Assembly: GCA_027311945.1 (NCBI GenBank)
Contig: DAICXZ010000009.1
Location: 1 to 64,000, forward strand
From: Erythrobacter sp.
GTDB lineage: Bacteria; Pseudomonadota; Alphaproteobacteria; Sphingomonadales; Sphingomonadaceae
Direction of reading: 5' to 3'
Length of the DNA: 64,000 bases
Positions 11,590 through 19,610 of this stretch are shown one piece after another. Under the pieces are notes generated by a model. That model made no database searches and was not told the origin of the DNA. It was given only the letters and a program-made list of their open reading frames with translations. Numbering within the stretch: the stretch's first letter is position 1; every line of letters begins with the position of its first letter. A program made the position numbers and the translations under genes.

Positions 11590-11635
11590 GGCAAATCTCC
11601 ATATGGCATCATATACGCCATTCAATGCCATTTGG
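11590..11635. promoter_or_regulatory. Probable autoregulatory operator of the RES/Xre operon
   Basis: Immediately upstream of the antitoxin start are repeated ATGGC half-sites: on the minus strand ATGGCATT, ATGGCGTA and an inverted TGCCAT lie within about 35 bases. Xre/MbcA antitoxins bind such repeats to autorepress. Assignment rests on position and repetition only. Confidence 0.4.
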
Positions 11636-13487
11636 CAATCGCCTCTGAGGATGATGCCAATCTGGCCATCACGCTCGCCGCGCCTTCTATCGGCACAAAG
11701 AGCCGGGTCTGGTAGCGGATGATCTCAGTGAAGCAGCCTTGGGCCTTGTACCAGTCGAGACGGGCTACGCTCCAACCGTTCAGCTCAATTCGCTGTGAGC
11801 CGTTGACCAGGCTGCGTTTGACCATGAGCTTCTCGCGGCCCGCGAATTCCATGGCGCGGCCCATCGCCAGGACGGTCTGGACAATGTCGTCGGTGGAAAG
11901 CGTCTTTTCCCGTTCGAGACCAAGCGCCCGGCACAGTTCGGGCACGCAATGGACGGGAACCTCACGGCCTAGCAGCGAGCGACCATCGGCTGCCGAGATG
12001 CGGCTCACCCTCACGAAATCCGAAGGGAGCTTGTCCCAGACCGGCAACAGGAGGCCCGTCGCAAGATAGAGGCGCTCGCGCTTGTGGCTGGTTTGCGCCT
12101 CCGCGACCTCGGTTGCCCAAGCCTCTCGGAAAGCGTCGATGGCAATATTCTCCCAGTTGCTCTCTGCCAACTGATCCTCGGTGATGTGACTGCGCTTCAG
12201 CGGACGCAGCAATTCGAAGCGGGCCACGCGCGTACCGTCATCGGCAAGAATACTGCGGGCGGGCACAATCAGTGCGACCCGACCTGAGCGGGTGTTCCGA
12301 ACCGGCCGCTGCCGCTGCCCGGTGATGCCGTGAAGCTCCTCAAGCCGCTTCAGCGTGAGCGGCTTCAGAGCTCTGGCGATCTCCAGTTCCAGCAGATGGG
12401 TCGTCGCACCTGAGGCCGGATCTGTGCGCAGCAGCGTGTCCGACAGGACCGTGAAGCCCTCGACCGCGATGGTCTCGAGGCCGAGGTCGAGTGTGCCGGC
12501 CTGCCGGGCGGCATCGATGCGCGCTTCGACCAGCCCCATGAACTCGTCAAAGATCGCGTTCTGTAGGGCTATGGGAAGCGCAAGGATGCGATTGAGCCAG
12601 CGCTGGATCGACGGCAGGTCATCGACCATTGAACCATCGGGTGCTTCGACCCTCAGGCCCGTCAGCTCCTGAAAACATCCGAGACTGACCGCTTCGAGCT
12701 TGCCGGTGAACAACAGGCCGAACCAGCGATGGAGCGCCTCCTTGGCGTAGATGCTTTCGAGATTGTCGGCCGGATCAAACAGGTTCTGTCCTCCGGTTTG
12801 GCGCTGTCCGCGCGTCAGCGCCCCAAGACTGTCCAAGCGCCGCGCGATCGTCGAGATGAAGCGGCGTTCGCCGCGCACATCAGTCGTCACCGGTCTGAAC
12901 AGCGGCGCCGATGCCTGATTGGTGCGATTGGTCCGGCCAAGCCCCTGAATTGCGGCGTCAGCGCGCCAGCCCGGCTCGAGCAGAAAGTGGACGCGGCGGG
13001 CCTGGTTCTTCGCCGCCAGATCGGCATGATAGCTGCGCCCCGTTCCCCCGGCGTCGGAAAACACCAGGATACGCTTGGTGCCGTCCATGAAAGCCTGGGT
13101 CTCAGCGACGTTGGCGCGCGGCGACCGCGATTGGAGTTTCTGACGACCGTCGCGGCCGACGATGAGCCGGCGTGTACGCCCGGTGACTTCCGCCACCTGA
13201 TCAACGCCGAAGCGTTCGATGATTGCATCGAGTGCTGTGGCGATGGGAGGCAGGGCACAGAGCTGCTCGATCATCCGGTCGCGTGCGGCGAGTGCGGAGC
13301 GGCAGAGTACCGGTGCGCCTTGCTCGTCGCTCATCGGCTCGGAGCGAGGATTACCGTTTTCGTCGGTGAACACCGCCATCAGGCGGACAGGAAAGCTCTT
13401 GGCGAGATAGTCGATCACATATTCTTTGCAGTCGCAGTTTATGTCGAGCGTGGCGGCGCGAGGCGCAGGTTTCCTTCGGTTTTCCAT
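11622..13487 (-). pseudogene. 'Strawberry notch'-type helicase, C-terminal half (cut by RIT element)
   Basis: This 621-residue frame is the second half of the gene whose first half ends at 17139. From residue 25 (IDYLAKSFPVRL) it reads as the RecA-like lobe 2 and C-terminal domain of strawberry-notch helicases, with motif VI GLGRTNRTNQ at about residues 182-191. The first 24 residues (MENRRKPAPRAATLDINCDCKEYV) come from the RIT terminal repeat, which also supplies an ATG with GGAG seven bases upstream. The fragment could therefore be translated, but without Walker A and DEAH motifs it cannot be an active ATPase alone. Confidence 0.85.
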
Positions 13488-13503
13488 GATTTCACTCCAG
13501 ATA
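13416..13503. repeat. RIT left terminal inverted repeat
   Basis: These 88 bases are the reverse complement of 17034-17121 with about three mismatches. On the minus strand the repeat contains GGAG, seven bases, ATG, and then an open frame of 24 codons running out into the flanking host gene. Confidence 0.92.
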
Positions 13504-13536
13504 TTATGAGGGTTAGAGAGAGTGTTCGAAGACGGG

Positions 13537-14541
13537 TCAGGCCCGCCTTCGAACGTCAGTGAGCATTGTGATCAAGGCGTCGGAAGGCGGCTTGAAGCGC
13601 CCCGGCTTGATCGCAGGGGCACCGTGGGCTGCGAGAATCTGCAGCTTCTCTTCGGGATCGGCGCGCAAGTAGGTCTCGGTGCTCTGGATACTGGCGTGGC
13701 CGAGCCATAATGCGACCTTGCGAATGTCCCCCGTCGCCGCGAGCGTGTGCATCGCGCAAGAATGACGAAGCACGTGGGGTGTGACGCGCTTCCCAAGGAT
13801 CGACGGCTGCTTCGTCGCTGCCGTCTTGACGTGCTCGGCCAATCGGAACGCAAATCCGTCGCGGGTCATCGGCTGCCCGTTGGCATTGAGGAATATCTCG
13901 GTGACCTCAACTTGAGGCCGGATCGCAAGCCATGCGCGCAATGCGATCTGGGTCTCCTTCCACAGCGGCAGGACCCGTTCACGTCGCCCTTTGCCCATGA
14001 TGTGCATGGTGGACAGGGAGCGGTCCGGGAAATCGCCCAGTTGCAGCGTTACGAGTTCCGACACCCTCAGTCCGCCAGCATAGGTAAGATGCAGCATCGC
14101 GCGATCACGGGTGCCGAGGCGTGTCCGGGGATCGGGTGTATCGAGCAAAGCCTTGATCTCGGCCCGGTCGAGGTAATCGATCAGCGCCTTGTCTGTCTTC
14201 TTGGTCGGGATTGCTCTGACACGGAGTGCCTGATCGAGGCAGGCTGGAATCCGGTACTCGATGTATCGGAAGAAGGATCGGATCGCGGCGAGCCTGCCAT
14301 TGCGGGTCCGCACGCAGCTGCCGCGGCCGATCTCCACATGATCGAGGAAGGCCATGATCATGTCTGTGCCGAGATCCTCAACCTCGAGATCGGTCGGTCG
14401 GCGCTTCAGCCGATCGGCAGCGAACTGGACGAGGAGGACGAAGCAGTTGGCATAGGTCTTCACCGTGTGCGGGCTGACGGCGCGTTCGCGCGGCAGATGT
14501 TCCCGCAGATATGCCGAGAGATGGGGAGCAAGCGCCGTCAT
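13537..14541 (-). CDS. RIT tyrosine recombinase, third gene (RitC-like)
   Basis: This 334-residue protein has an N-terminal SAM-like core-binding domain (about 1-100) and a C-terminal catalytic domain. Catalytic residues visible are Arg159 in YAGGLRVSEL, a lysine in the MGKGRRER turn, the HVLRHSCAMH box, WLGHASIQ and Tyr in TETYLRAD. It is the last gene of the trio, and its start overlaps the stop of the second recombinase by four bases (ATGA). It appears intact. Confidence 0.93.
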   Translation of the reverse strand: MTALAPHLSAYLREHLPRERAVSPHTVKTYANCFVLLVQFAADRLKRRPTDLEVEDLGTDMIMAFLDHVEIGRGSCVRTRNGRLAAIRSFFRYIEYRIPACLDQALRVRAIPTKKTDKALIDYLDRAEIKALLDTPDPRTRLGTRDRAMLHLTYAGGLRVSELVTLQLGDFPDRSLSTMHIMGKGRRERVLPLWKETQIALRAWLAIRPQVEVTEIFLNANGQPMTRDGFAFRLAEHVKTAATKQPSILGKRVTPHVLRHSCAMHTLAATGDIRKVALWLGHASIQSTETYLRADPEEKLQILAAHGAPAIKPGRFKPPSDALITMLTDVRRRA

Positions 14542-15470
14542 GCCGCTTCTCCTTGAAAAAGTTGCTCGCTTGCAGCCGCAATGTCGCGCAGCAGCACTGG
14601 CGTGGCTTCGAGATACCAGTACGTGTTGGCGATCGACGCGTGCCCCAGGTAGACACTGAGACCGGCCATGTGGTGGGCAATGGCCTCCCTGTCACGCGGG
14701 CACGACTCAAGCGAGCGAACAGCGAACGTATGTCGCAGATCGTGGAGTCGCATGCCTGCCGTACCGGTTGCTCCACGATATCCGAGAAGCCGGGCCAACC
14801 TGACGAACACGACGTGGGCGCGCACCTTGTGCGGCGCCCGCCCCCGGATAGTGACGAACAGGTCATTACACTTGGCCGGGTGCTTCGCGCGGATCGCAAT
14901 GTAGGCTTCGAGTGCTTGGCGCGTCGATGGCTGCAAGGCGATCAGCCGCTGCTTGCCGAACTTGCCGTTGCGGACGACCAGCCCATCCTCGACCAGATCG
15001 TCGCACTGTAGGGCGAGAGCCTCGGAAATCCGGAGACCTGTCGCCGCGAGCAGGCCGAACAGGTAATGGTACGTGTATGGGCTAATCGTGCCATGGGGCG
15101 GAACGTTCAATGCCGCCGCCATGATCGCCCGCACCTGGTCCGGTTCGATGATGGTCGGAGTGGGACGTGGCCGCTTCCCCCGGCCGAAAACGCCGACAGG
15201 CGGGACTTCGTGGTCTGGGTCCTCGGCGTGAGCGAAAAGGCTGAAATTACGAGCAGCGTCGTACCTATGGCGAGCCACGTTCTGCGAGCTTGCCGTGTGG
15301 CACCAGTCGTAGATGCGCTGCACTCGGGTGTGCCGGTCACCGAAGCGTTCGGCGAAAGCGGCGTATTGGCGCAGCAGTCGTTCCTGTTCCGAGAACTTCC
15401 GCCCCAAGTCGCGATACAGCGAGACGTATCTGGCAATGTGCGTGTTCAGCATGACGGTTCTCCCGGCCAT
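14538..15470 (-). CDS. RIT tyrosine recombinase, second gene (RitB-like)
   Basis: The protein is 310 residues as drawn. A second start at 15452 (MLNTHIARY) would reduce the overlap with the first recombinase from 25 to 7 bases and may be the real one. The catalytic domain shows Arg in AATGLRISEAL, the LHDLRHTFAVRSL box, YLGHASIANTYWYLE with the nucleophilic Tyr. It is translationally coupled on both sides, as expected in RIT elements where all three recombinases are retained together. Confidence 0.93.
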   Translation of the reverse strand: MAGRTVMLNTHIARYVSLYRDLGRKFSEQERLLRQYAAFAERFGDRHTRVQRIYDWCHTASSQNVARHRYDAARNFSLFAHAEDPDHEVPPVGVFGRGKRPRPTPTIIEPDQVRAIMAAALNVPPHGTISPYTYHYLFGLLAATGLRISEALALQCDDLVEDGLVVRNGKFGKQRLIALQPSTRQALEAYIAIRAKHPAKCNDLFVTIRGRAPHKVRAHVVFVRLARLLGYRGATGTAGMRLHDLRHTFAVRSLESCPRDREAIAHHMAGLSVYLGHASIANTYWYLEATPVLLRDIAAASEQLFQGEAA

Positions 15471-16993
15471 GGCTGCGCGATCTTCATGAGCATCGGCAGG
15501 TCGACCTTGGCGTAGATGGCGGTGGTCTCGGGCGAGCTGTGGCGCAGGATCGTTCCAACGGACTCCAGCCCTGCGCCCGCGCGCAGCAAGTTGGTGGCAA
15601 GCGAATGCCGGAAAATGTGCGATCCGGTCGGCACGCCTTCGATCCCGCCGCGCTCATGCGTGCGTGCAACGATGCCGGCGATCTCCGCCGATGAGCGAAA
15701 CGAAAGGAACGGGGCTTGCGCGCGCACGAACAGATGCGGATCGGCGGTCTTGGGACGCGCCGTGGCAATGTAGTCCAGGATCGCGTCACCGACGTCCTGA
15801 GGCAATGGCAGGCGATCAGGCCGACGCGTCTTGCCCTTGACCGTCAGGTGGCCCGAGCGCCAGTCGATATCGTCGAGGTGCATATCCCGAATATCACCGG
15901 CACGCAGGCCAAGCCGGGCGAGCAGGAGAATGATGGCCTTGTCCCGAACTTCCACCGGGCGATCAGTCGGACATGCGCCGATGATCTGCTCGATCGTTGC
16001 CGGGTTGACGTGCCGGGGCAGCGTCGAAAGACGGTAGCGTTGCACTGATGGGATCGCGTGCAACAAAGCTGGACGGCAAACACCCTGCACGACCAGGAAC
16101 CGAATATAGCTCCTCATTATCGTGACGAGCAGTGATGCCGAACCCGGCGTCTCCTTGCTTCGTTGTTGAAACGCCCGCCTGAGGACGGCTGCATCCCATT
16201 GTGAAGGGTCGCCGAGCATAGGCATGAGCCGCCTGATATCGGCCCGGTAGCGCCGGATCGTCTCATCGGTCGCGCCGCGGTGTTGCTTGAGCCATGCCAG
16301 ATATGCCGCCATGTGCGGGTCGTCATCCGACACCGGTTCGACTGAAGGGATGACACCCCGGCCGCGCAAGAACTCGACGAAGTGCCGAGCGCCACGCCGC
16401 CGCCGCTTCGCGCCCGAGGCGACGAGCTTGCCCCGCTTGCGCCAGACCGGACAGCGGCAACCATGCGCCGCGTACTGGTCGAGGATCGCGTCATCGACAT
16501 CGGCCCACGACTGCCGCTTGATGCGAAGCCAAGCCACAATATGCTCGGCTTCCGACCGGTAGCCCTGTGCCACTCCAGGGGCGAGTTGCAGGCTGTCGAT
16601 TGCATCGGAGTAGTCGGTGAGGTGACGGGGGAGATCGTCGATCCCATCGTCGACTTCGATATACCCTTGATCTTCGAGGAACCGGACAAAGCGCCGGACC
16701 CGCGCAGCCTGATCAGTCTTATAGGCGGCTTGCTGAGCCGAGTATCCGTGGCACCGACAACGGTGCTTCTCGAACCGTCGGACGACTTGATCGTCGAGCG
16801 TACTGACCGGGATGGCATGCACATCCAGCCAATGCAGGAAATGACGGATCGCTGCACTGTACAGGATCGAACAGGCCGCTTCCTCCCTGACCCACAGAGA
16901 GGAGAGGAAGGCGTTGAATAGGGCATCTGAGCTGGGCGGATCTTCGATCCGGAGCTGTGCCGGACAAAACAGCTCTGATGATCTTGTTCTCAT
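15446..16993 (-). CDS. RIT tyrosine recombinase, first gene (RitA-like)
   Basis: This 515-residue protein is much longer than ordinary Xer-type recombinases, as is usual for the first gene of RIT elements. The extra N-terminal part contains cysteine-rich segments (KHRCRCHGYS and AAHGCRCPVWRKRG). Catalytic residues are Arg in LLARLGLRAGDIR, Lys in TVKGKTRRPD, SHIFRHSLATNLL, LRHSSPETTAIYAK with the Tyr. An AAGGA ribosome-binding site precedes the ATG. The promoter should lie in the roughly 40 bases between it and the right inverted repeat. Confidence 0.93.
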   Translation of the reverse strand: MRTRSSELFCPAQLRIEDPPSSDALFNAFLSSLWVREEAACSILYSAAIRHFLHWLDVHAIPVSTLDDQVVRRFEKHRCRCHGYSAQQAAYKTDQAARVRRFVRFLEDQGYIEVDDGIDDLPRHLTDYSDAIDSLQLAPGVAQGYRSEAEHIVAWLRIKRQSWADVDDAILDQYAAHGCRCPVWRKRGKLVASGAKRRRRGARHFVEFLRGRGVIPSVEPVSDDDPHMAAYLAWLKQHRGATDETIRRYRADIRRLMPMLGDPSQWDAAVLRRAFQQRSKETPGSASLLVTIMRSYIRFLVVQGVCRPALLHAIPSVQRYRLSTLPRHVNPATIEQIIGACPTDRPVEVRDKAIILLLARLGLRAGDIRDMHLDDIDWRSGHLTVKGKTRRPDRLPLPQDVGDAILDYIATARPKTADPHLFVRAQAPFLSFRSSAEIAGIVARTHERGGIEGVPTGSHIFRHSLATNLLRAGAGLESVGTILRHSSPETTAIYAKVDLPMLMKIAQPWPGEPSC

Positions 16994-17033
16994 GGTGGTT
17001 CCTTCGACTTGTTCAGGTCGAGGGAACCGTAAT

Positions 17034-17121
17034 TATCTGGAGTGAAATCATGGAAAACCGAAGGAAACCTGCGCCTCCTGCCGCCGCGCTCGACATAAAC
17101 TGCGACTGCAAAGAATATGTG
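17034..17121. repeat. RIT right terminal inverted repeat
   Basis: This is the partner of 13416-13503. On the plus strand it carries the same GGAG-ATG and the same short frame (MENRRKPAPP...CKEYV), which here runs into a TAA at the palindrome, so no fusion protein is made on this side. Confidence 0.92.
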
Positions 17122-17141
17122 TAATGTTGAGCTCAACATTA
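17122..17141. repeat. 20-base perfect palindrome at the RIT right end
   Basis: TAATGTTGAG followed by its exact reverse complement. The nine bases on each side (GAATATGTG and CACGTATTC) extend the symmetry to 38 bases with one mismatched pair. Read leftward, its first three bases (TAA) end the truncated helicase gene. It is absent from the left end. Confidence 0.9.
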
Positions 17142-19610
17142 CACGTATTCCCGCGGGGACAGGTCGATCTCCAGAGTTTCGCGCTCCTCGTCTGACAGGT
17201 CGGCAAGTCGGCGGTCGAGCATGGCTTCTGCCGTCGAGACCAGCTGGACGACAACAGCGTGACCGTCGGCAATCGCCGTATCGATCGCAGGCAGCAGGCT
17301 CGGGAGCTTCATAGACAGAAGCAGCTGTGCGAAGAAGCGCTGCTTGGTTCCCTCGAAGATCGACAGCGCTGCAGACTTGGCACCCGAGTTGAGCGTGCCG
17401 CCGGTCTCGCTGTCGACGATCCGCGTGGCTTCCAGCGCTTCGCGCAGGTTGGCGTGAATGATCGCCCAGGCCTCAGCATAGGCATCGTAGACCGCGATCT
17501 GGTCCTCGGTCAGGCAATGCTCGAGGATCTCATACTCGACACCGGCGAACGAAAGGGCCCGGGCGGTGTAGAGGCCGAGTGATTTGAGATCCCGCGCGAC
17601 CAGTTCCATGGCTGCAATTCCGCCATCGCGAATGTCGGCGACGAAGGCCTCGCGATTGGCAAACGCGGTCTCCGGACCCCAGAGCCCGAGGCGCGTTGCA
17701 TAGGCCAGGTTGTTAACGTCGGACGCTCCGGTGGCCGAGGCGTAGAGCACCCTTGCCCGGGGCAGGAGGTTCTGCAGGCGCACCCCGGCAATGCCCTGCT
17801 CCGATCCTTTGACCTTGCCCCGCGATCCCTCGCCGCCGGCTGCGTTAGACATGGCGTGCGCTTCGTCGAACACGATCACGCCGTCGAACCCCTCACCAGC
17901 CCATGCGAGGATCTGGTCAAGCCGCGTTGCGTCGCTTCGACCCGAACGCAGCGTCGGATAGGTCACGAAGAGAATCCCGTCGCGCATCGCGATGGGGGTG
18001 CCGAGCTTCCAGGACGCCAGAGGTTGGATGTCGATCGGGAGACCGCCTAGCGCAGTCCAGTCGCGGCGAGCATCTTCGAGCAACGCCTCGTTCTTCGAAA
18101 TCCAGATATGGCGGCGTTCCCCGCGCACCCAGCGGTCGAGAATGACGCTCGCGACCTGGCGGCCCTTACCAGCGCCGGTGCCGTCCCCAAGGAAATAGCC
18201 CTGCCGGTAGATATGACCTTCAGCCGAGGCATTGAGCGAACAGCCCTTGTCCTCGGGTTCGAACCGGCCAGGCAAATCGCGCGCATGGGCGCTTGCGGCA
18301 TAGATCAGAGTCTCTGCCTGGGCAGCCGACAGCAGCCCCTTCGCAATCAACCCGTCGGGAAGCTGCGGTATTCCGTCTGGCTTAGGTGCAGAAATCGACC
18401 CCATGGCAACGGATTCAACGAGCGGCGTCGGATGCCCGGCCGCGCCATCGATAACGATTCTGCTCGGACGATAGGGCAGATAGTGGCCGACCTGATGGTC
18501 AAGCGGCGCAGGGGCTTCGAGCGACTGGTAGGTGAGCGACCCAATGGCGGAGGCTGCAGGAGTGATCCTTGCTGGTGTCGGCTGCGGCCTGCGCGGCGCG
18601 GCGACCAGAAGGAACGGGGCACGAGCCGGAAGGCTCGACTTCTGGGGAGCAGCCTCCGGGCTGGCGCGAGCCGGCAAGGCATCAACAAGATCGACCAGCT
18701 GGCGGAACTCGTTCGTGCGAATAGCGATGGGCTCGTTGGCACCTTCCACCTTATCGAGAACCAGCAGCCGCGTGGTGATCCCGGTGCCATTCTTGATAAA
18801 GGCACGTTCAACCGCGGCATTGAGCCGCATCGACACTGGCCCCTTCGCCCCGGCCAGAAACCGCGCGCAATCGAACCATTCAGGCATGATCGCGACCAGC
18901 CGCCCGCCGGGGGCAAGCCGGTTCCAGGCCGAGCGCAGATGCCTCGCTCCGGTGCGGCCATCGTGGCCCCGCTCGATCCCATGAGAATATGGCGGGTTCA
19001 TCAGCACGACGCTCGGTGCGATGACCGGATCGAGCAATTCGTCGATGAGCTCGGCATCATGCCCGGTCACGCGGGCAGCCGGGAACGCAGCAGTCAGGCA
19101 GTCGCGGCGCAGCGGCGAGATTTCGTTCAAGGCAAGGCGCGTGCCGGCTTTGGCAGACCAGACCGCGAGCATCCCCGTTCCGGCCGATGGTTCGAGCACG
19201 AGCTCATCGGGTATCAGCCCACAGGCCCGTGCGGCAAGCCAGGCCAGGCGCGGCGGCGTTGCGAATTGCTGCCATTCGATCTGCTCGTCGCTGCGATTGG
19301 TCTGGGTCGGAATTCGGTCATCGAGGGAGAAGAAGAACTGTTCCGCCTCGTCGATCGGGCTCGCGAGCTGGATCTGATCGAACGCTTGCAGGTATTGAAC
19401 CTGTGCCAGCTCTAGAGCTGCGTGGGCGTCACGCACCGACCAACGCCCGAGAGCATCGCTGCCCCCGAAGTGCTCGCTCATGATACGCGTCACGTCGCTG
19501 CGTGACAGCGCGCGGCCAGCTGCGAGCTCTGAAGCCATGATCTGGGCCGCCGTCGCAACAGCGGGCGGTGATGGTTCATCGAATGCAAAAGCGAGGGAAG
19601 AATTGGACAT
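17139..19610 (-). pseudogene. 'Strawberry notch' methylase-helicase, N-terminal half (cut by RIT element)
   Basis: The fragment is 823 residues. Residues about 110-290 form a methyltransferase domain with SAM motif EPSAGTGML (140-148) and catalytic NPPY (205-208), the N6-adenine type. A proline-rich linker follows, then helicase lobe 1 with Walker A GDGTGAGKG (475-483) and DEAH (582-585). It ends at ...SPREYV followed by TAA supplied by the RIT palindrome. The missing lobe 2 is the frame at 11622-13487, and the joined protein would be about 1,425 residues. Such genes are common on conjugative elements and plasmids of Sphingomonadales. The methylase half could still work alone. Confidence 0.88.

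Follow-up and report, generated by a model that had tools for sequence, protein, structure and literature searches.

A target-adapted RIT element in the strawberry-notch methylase-helicase genes of sphingomonads

The element, its ends and the interrupted gene

In the window (the whole stretch of 64,000 nucleotides that was analysed, from an Erythrobacter sp. assembly, contig DAICXZ010000009.1) a strawberry-notch (sbn) methylase-helicase gene is interrupted by a RIT element, here called RIT-A (Table 1). An earlier note on this DNA had described a complete RIT inserted within such a gene, and both points hold: three tyrosine recombinase genes on the minus strand, in the order A-B-C and with ORF overlaps of 25 and 4 bp (7 bp instead of 25 if the ritB start is taken as annotated in L006), lie between matching inverted arms of 88 nt each that are 97% complementary, and the flanking gene halves carry the Pfam domains listed in Table 1. 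A Phage_integrase domain (Pfam) was found in RitA, RitB and RitC, the element measures 3706 bp from arm to arm, and its terminal inverted repeats are accompanied by a 20-bp palindrome.

Table 1. Positions of the RIT-A copy and of the interrupted sbn gene in the window
Feature	Position	Strand	Remarks
Upstream half of sbn methylase-helicase gene	17142..19610	-	823 aa; Pfam AAA_34
Stop codon of upstream half	17139-17141	-	inside palindrome; upstream ORF 17139-19610
20-bp perfect palindrome TAATGTTGAGCTCAACATTA	17122..17141	.	element-borne; source of the TAA closing the upstream half
ritA-side arm	17034..17121	+	outward GGAG; ATG 17050-17052; 24 codons to 17121
ritA	15446..16993	-	tyrosine recombinase, 515 aa
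ritB	14538..15470	-	tyrosine recombinase, 310 aa taken as longest ORF
ritC	13537..14541	-	tyrosine recombinase, 334 aa
ritC-side arm	13416..13503	-	GGAG 13495-13498; ATG 13485-13487; 24 codons 13416-13487 into downstream half
Downstream half of sbn	11622..13415	-	597 codons from joint; Pfam Helicase_C_4
Downstream ORF including arm	11622-13487	-	621 aa
Hexamer t, TACGTG	17142..17147	-	last two codons of upstream half
Hexamer u, TATGTG	17116..17121	+	on palindrome-side arm
Hexamer d, TATGTG	13416..13421	-	adjoins downstream half

This anatomy is that of known RITs, for instance of Cupriavidus metallidurans CH34, for which the source passages describe a length of about 3.5 kb, a set of three adjacent tyrosine recombinase genes that overlap, a palindrome accompanying the inverted repeats, and insertion inside genes such as radC, as well as a RitA with two core-binding domains and a RitC with an extra C-terminal helix (the latter two in PMC8138268). 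RIT-A shares with them the recombinase trio, the size, the repeats with palindrome and the insertion in genes, whereas its arms are 88-90 bp long compared with inverted repeats of 34 bp or 28-29 bp in the RITs reported there. As far as these passages go, only RIT-A has an arm extension with a start and in-frame codons and a single recurrent codon boundary in sbn.

The upstream ORF terminates with SPREYV followed by TAA, and the downstream ORF, likewise on the minus strand, starts at an ATG in the arm, 7 nt behind a GGAG, and continues through 24 arm codons into IDYLAKS. Read outward, both arms show this same order of GGAG, 7 nt, ATG and 24 codons; it is the ritA-side arm that faces the upstream half. 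The earlier note had ascribed both the stop and the start to the repeats. The start does lie in the arm, but the TAA sits in the 20-bp palindrome, which travels with the element outside the 88-bp repeats.

The claim that the two frames rejoin cleanly at EYV/IDYL was confirmed, since intact relatives read straight through. The closest intact homologue among the matches listed, L042, has an empty site with LSPREYV/IDYLAKS in one uninterrupted frame of 1438 codons, and is 97-98% identical to the sbn of the window over two compared stretches of 260 residues. Matches to the opening 300 codons of the downstream half turned up in 139 of 397 genomes of the family, and 20 short-frame and 20 long-frame loci were examined among the matches listed. 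All 20 long-frame loci run continuous across the joint. In 13 of the 20 short-frame loci RIT-A was found at the joint (L022-L027, L029, L030, L032, L033, L035, L036 and L040), two (L031 and L039) are cut upstream only, by another RIT, and five (L028, L034, L037, L038 and L041) are continuous at the joint, carry a frameshift or come from short contigs. Of 66 loci uncut by RIT-A at the joint, nearly all of them picked for a long frame, 61 stay open for at least 444 codons on its upstream side and 560 on its downstream side.

The cut had also been placed between the two helicase lobes. This agrees with Pfam, where it falls between AAA_34 and Helicase_C_4, but not with an AlphaFold model of an intact homologue (mean pLDDT 75, pTM 0.52; cut after residue 444), in which the joint lies inside helix 440-450 that comes after strand 406-411 (block pLDDT 57-84 across residues 411-450). 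We read this strand as the likely first strand of lobe 2, and the joint is therefore probably not strictly between the lobes. For the downstream piece, the arm codons could supply a new first turn of helix 440-450.

Recurrence at one codon boundary

Other copies and their insertion contexts were collected by a megablast of plasmids, which matched 27 records (records near the genome of the window may be absent from this set), and by a RitC alignment search, which gave 73 named loci. A scan of all collected loci for the arm end yielded 199 matches that paired into 79 unique copies. Of the 64 unique copies with resolved flanks 62 lie in sbn, the other 15 of the 79, including L148 of a sister type, being bare contigs. 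A simple upstream-RIT-downstream arrangement at one codon boundary was found in 59 copies, with orientations 31:28, and L201 and L202 raise this placed set to 61, all at the same boundary. Three sbn copies are rearranged, L101 and L146 having the upstream half and L158 the downstream half at both ends, which would fit recombination between two interrupted genes or a misjoined assembly. Because a set found through RitC over-represents interrupted genes, no prevalence was drawn from it. A search of viral contigs found no RitC relative.

The mobility of RITs was said in 2012 to remain "to be experimentally demonstrated", and in the passages of a 2023 source target specificity, empty site and movement are likewise not tested. 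Comparison of the RIT-A copies points to mobility, as elements that are 100% identical occupy sbn alleles of about 67-91% identity at the DNA level. The joint is the same in L062 and L063, whose sbn is 44-49% identical to that of the window. Elements of L009 and L020 are 95.4% alike and in the same orientation, with sbn flanks that are 100% (downstream) and 99.7% (upstream) identical; this looks like two insertions into one and the same allele. In the literature searched we found no RITs in strawberry-notch genes, and an earlier mention may exist outside the parts covered.

The sbn proteins fall among the dyads of a methylase and a SWI2/SNF2 protein that the source passages describe in phages and conjugative elements; DarB, the best known of them, shields incoming DNA against restriction (PMC5512222). 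The gene hit by a sister RIT, L149, is a DarB-like antirestriction gene (PHROG 10089; E 2e-53 for one side and 1.5e-100 for the other), and this one copy would fit a specialisation of RIT-A-type RITs on such genes. Methylase-helicases of mobile elements thus appear to be targeted by RITs repeatedly, with two RIT families in sbn and one sister element in a DarB-like gene. In L149:1-5157 RitC is 74% identical, a SGTAITN motif adjoins the element, the palindrome is on the downstream side and the arm frame is closed. Another RIT copy, L151, interrupts an unnamed host gene, apparently in frame too; a DUF932 protein was considered as its host and dropped, the upstream piece having no Pfam or PHROGs match.

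Copies of RIT-A span 3.7-6.6 kb, some with an extra gene or IS. An additional gene of 1305 nt, annotated as hypothetical, is present beside ritC on the opposite strand in copies of about 5.1 kb (L009:6231-7535, L082:5232-6536 and L083:5226-6530), and L020:2978-9535 and L021:2978-9535, two identical copies on two plasmids of one strain, have a gene for an IS256-family transposase between their arms. The window's own genome has a second arm with palindrome, 87% similar (L003:54-161, G000:C13), located at the end of a contig beside the upstream half of another sbn gene. Near-identical RIT-A copies were also seen in MAG contigs labelled Hylemonella, Rhizobiaceae and Chloroflexi (L111, L112, L099 and L129); the contigs with labels of other groups are perhaps mis-binned.

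Hexamers, orientation and a proposed scheme of movement

For each placed copy we defined three hexamers of 6 bp, i.e. two codons beside the arm: t ends the upstream half, u is on the palindrome-side arm and d adjoins the downstream half. Seven strains carry the same element twice (identity was measured as 100% in five of these pairs, L016/L201 share all three protein accessions, and the sameness of L017/L202 rests on equal hit scores). The two copies are opposite in orientation in all seven (two-sided binomial 0.016), and in all seven a relay rule holds by which the daughter's u equals the donor's d and the daughter's t equals the donor's u (or the same with the roles exchanged). Among the 11 flipped near-identical pairs, which include these seven, 9 obey the rule (the exceptions are L006/L094 and L007/L089), against 25 of 917 other flipped pairs. 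Nine of the ten 100%-identical pairs are flipped, L017/L144 being in the same orientation. In four of the seven same-strain pairs the palindrome is imperfect and so informative, and its register to the recombinase genes is kept in all four.

Which hexamer is native to the target was examined in the 12 copies that have an uncut relative at least 93% identical and a t that differs from d. The hexamer of the relative equals d in nine, t in two (L108 and L025, upstream side) and neither in one (L029); in the five cases where the encoded dipeptides differ it equals d throughout. For SE elements the source passages describe 6-bp spacers carried by a fixed rule and propose copy-out without an empty site. 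RIT-A likewise carries its 6-bp sequences by a fixed rule, in mirrored form, with the hexamer of the target mostly downstream; an SE-like assignment of the native hexamer was tried and rejected, as it fits the pairs no better than the reverse and the intact relatives favoured the reverse. The two also differ in gene set (IntA, Tfp, IntB and Srap in SEs, three recombinases only between the arms in the window), and the SE passages mention no orientation flip, whereas RIT-A flips and leaves the target's hexamer on the downstream side of the gene. Tn916, with its coupling sequences, is described as having a variable 6-bp donor sequence at the element end, as RIT-A has, but uses many sites instead of one codon boundary in one gene family. 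The hexamers behave like the coupling sequences of SEs and Tn916.

We propose that RIT-A passes through a nearly symmetric circular form, arm-hexamer-palindrome-hexamer-arm, and that it would integrate by recombination over a 6-bp overlap after a GAA or GAG codon of the target. The target's hexamer would mostly stay with the downstream half, while the protected hexamer of the element would come to end the upstream half; on exit, the circle would take the downstream-side hexamer. The arm used at entry would be the one not used at exit, so that the orientation flips. Since each of the seven same-strain pairs retains both of its copies, movement seems to add copies rather than relocate them, and the relay would run by copying, from donor to daughter. 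One site, a 6-bp overlap, a palindromic double site, a relay and a flip make this a falsifiable scheme of RIT movement.

A programmed intervening element was also considered, one that exits precisely at some stage and so restores the full-length helicase gene, for which the restoration of sigK by skin is the model. After an exit the frame would stay open, with two sense codons left behind, as there is no stop codon in any of the 183 hexamers, and intact alleles do occur in close relatives. However, the presence of both copies in 7 of 7 same-strain pairs suggests copying, the two orientations are about equally common, and the identical flanks of L009 and L020 hold different elements, so that the gene does not have the element as a permanent component. 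We hold programmed exit to be very unlikely.

Start, stop and the fate of the split gene

The start is constant among the sbn-type arms. All 39 distinct arms have an ATG with an open frame into the downstream half, and GGAG precedes the ATG by 7 or 8 nt in all 61 distinct contexts (these counts exclude two native sbn sites, L013 and L038, that match the arm pattern), so that the start side of the earlier claim stands in both orientations. An immediate stop is less general, even in RIT-A: TAA follows the upstream half directly in 53 of 61 placed copies, and in the remaining eight the palindrome starts with TTA. In the six of these that were read the upstream half is extended by 37 codons and then stops.

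RIT-A thus supplies an in-frame 5' coding end to the gene it enters. According to the source passages SXT in prfC and IMEVchUSA3 in dusA also give the entered gene a new N-terminus; they act at the 5' end of the gene and bring a promoter, shown with fusions for dusA (PMC8409611). RIT-A, in contrast, cuts in mid-gene and provides translation ends for both pieces in either orientation, and no promoter was found: a search confined to the sigma-70-like type gave no match between 13380 and 17200. A weak terminator-like match spans the palindrome.

Because the two-codon overlap is in register and both arms carry GGAG, ATG and an open frame, the downstream half comes to lie in frame behind a start in either orientation; the upstream half would be closed at once or, in the TTA-type copies read, after the additional codons. 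Use of the arm start would soften the damage of insertion, and such a soft landing of RIT-A is plausible from the sequence. Insertion into a conserved gene need then not equal its loss, and the annotation of interrupted genes would change. We are inclined to regard RIT-A as a RIT subfamily that is specific for one codon boundary in sphingomonad sbn genes, spreads by the relay and may land softly.

Quite possible, if short of probable, is that the same element with the same relay simply knocks out a dispensable gene, the start and open frame being by-products. The ATG would then be fortuitous, and the arm would have to resemble target DNA for recombination, so that its outer end shares the frame of the gene. 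The coding signature of the arm is indeed weak: dN/dS is 0.83-0.98 for codons 2-13 and 0.46-0.49 for codons 14-22, with 0.42-0.44 in the antisense frame at codons 14-22, and the other arm frames are often open too (34, 30, 39 and 37 of 39), so that coding selection, looked for by dN/dS and open frames, was not convincingly found. GGAG is part of the motif TTATCTGGAG, which recurs in some palindromes, and it may therefore be kept as recombinase-binding DNA. The arm ATG is also not the only possible start, since 67 of 81 downstream ends have a native in-frame ATG 12 codons past the joint.

A by-product would further agree with the sister arms of L148 and L149, where GGAG and ATG are conserved and the frame is dead, closed by TGA and TAA. 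The arm of L149 does not abut the downstream half, because the palindrome sits downstream; that the frame is closed in arms which feed no downstream half speaks against a by-product, although this may reflect one event. Resemblance of the arm to sbn is confined to its outer nine residues, LDINCDCKE, which beat shuffles mainly through the native type of L038 (LDITTDCKE), a segment that this type could have got from an arm. Derivation of the whole arm ORF from sbn was rejected, the inner 13 residues being no better than shuffles in the six arm types tried. In about half of the copies the rit genes are set against sbn, so that only antisense read-through would serve the downstream half. Several genomes among the matches listed have more than one sbn gene, in line with dispensability.

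Against a plain knock-out, though weakly, speaks the full length of 60 of 65 distinct downstream halves and of 47 of the 49 distinct upstream halves that RIT-B has left uncut (see below; the short upstream piece of L146, 169 codons, fell below the limit and was left out). Downstream-half dN/dS in tree cherries is 0.04-0.26 for interrupted and 0.06-0.23 for intact pairs. The insertions look young, as identical elements occupy very different alleles and no pair shares an insertion and its divergence, and intact halves and dN/dS hence say little on selection after insertion. Among the 61 copies we found no old shared insertions for a dN/dS test; of 902 pairs in the same orientation, 2 agree in all three hexamers, and the flanks are diverged in each of them. 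The sample, in which most species are represented by a single genome, would also conceal shared insertions. That no pair shares orientation, hexamers and a similar divergence of element and flanks looks as if interrupted alleles were short-lived, as expected of a knock-out.

It seems rather unlikely that the ends of RIT-A have evolved to split the helicase into two translated subunits, in either orientation and without destroying the gene. The two-codon overlap would then keep each hop in frame, and one conserved motif would be occupied across plasmids, as inteins and introns likewise occupy one, though RIT-A would do so without splicing. We regard RIT-A as a target-adapted RIT variant with an unusually legible movement scheme and a plausible soft landing.

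The further suggestion of the earlier note, that RIT repeats generally carry a start/stop pair, failed. We found a second RIT trio, RIT-B, in the same sbn gene, its joint about 108 codons further upstream; in 15 distinct upstream halves it cuts off a middle piece that is open over exactly 108 codons. RIT-B resembles RIT-A in its target gene, a 20-bp palindrome (TTATGCGCAGCTGCGCATAA) and a hexamer at the joint, but its end places a stop and not a start before the downstream piece, and in all 10 RIT-B joints among those listed an in-frame TAA immediately precedes it. Of 15 further RITs tried, the rule used resolved the ends of five and left ten; in two of the five the arm closes the frame, and in the other three the frame is open but the RIT-A arm is lacking. 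Among the RITs compared, the start is a trait of RIT-A and not of RITs at large. RIT-B was seen for instance at L011:9721-13822, L014:9718-13805 and L016:1757-5535, and where RIT-A is present too, sbn lies in three pieces.
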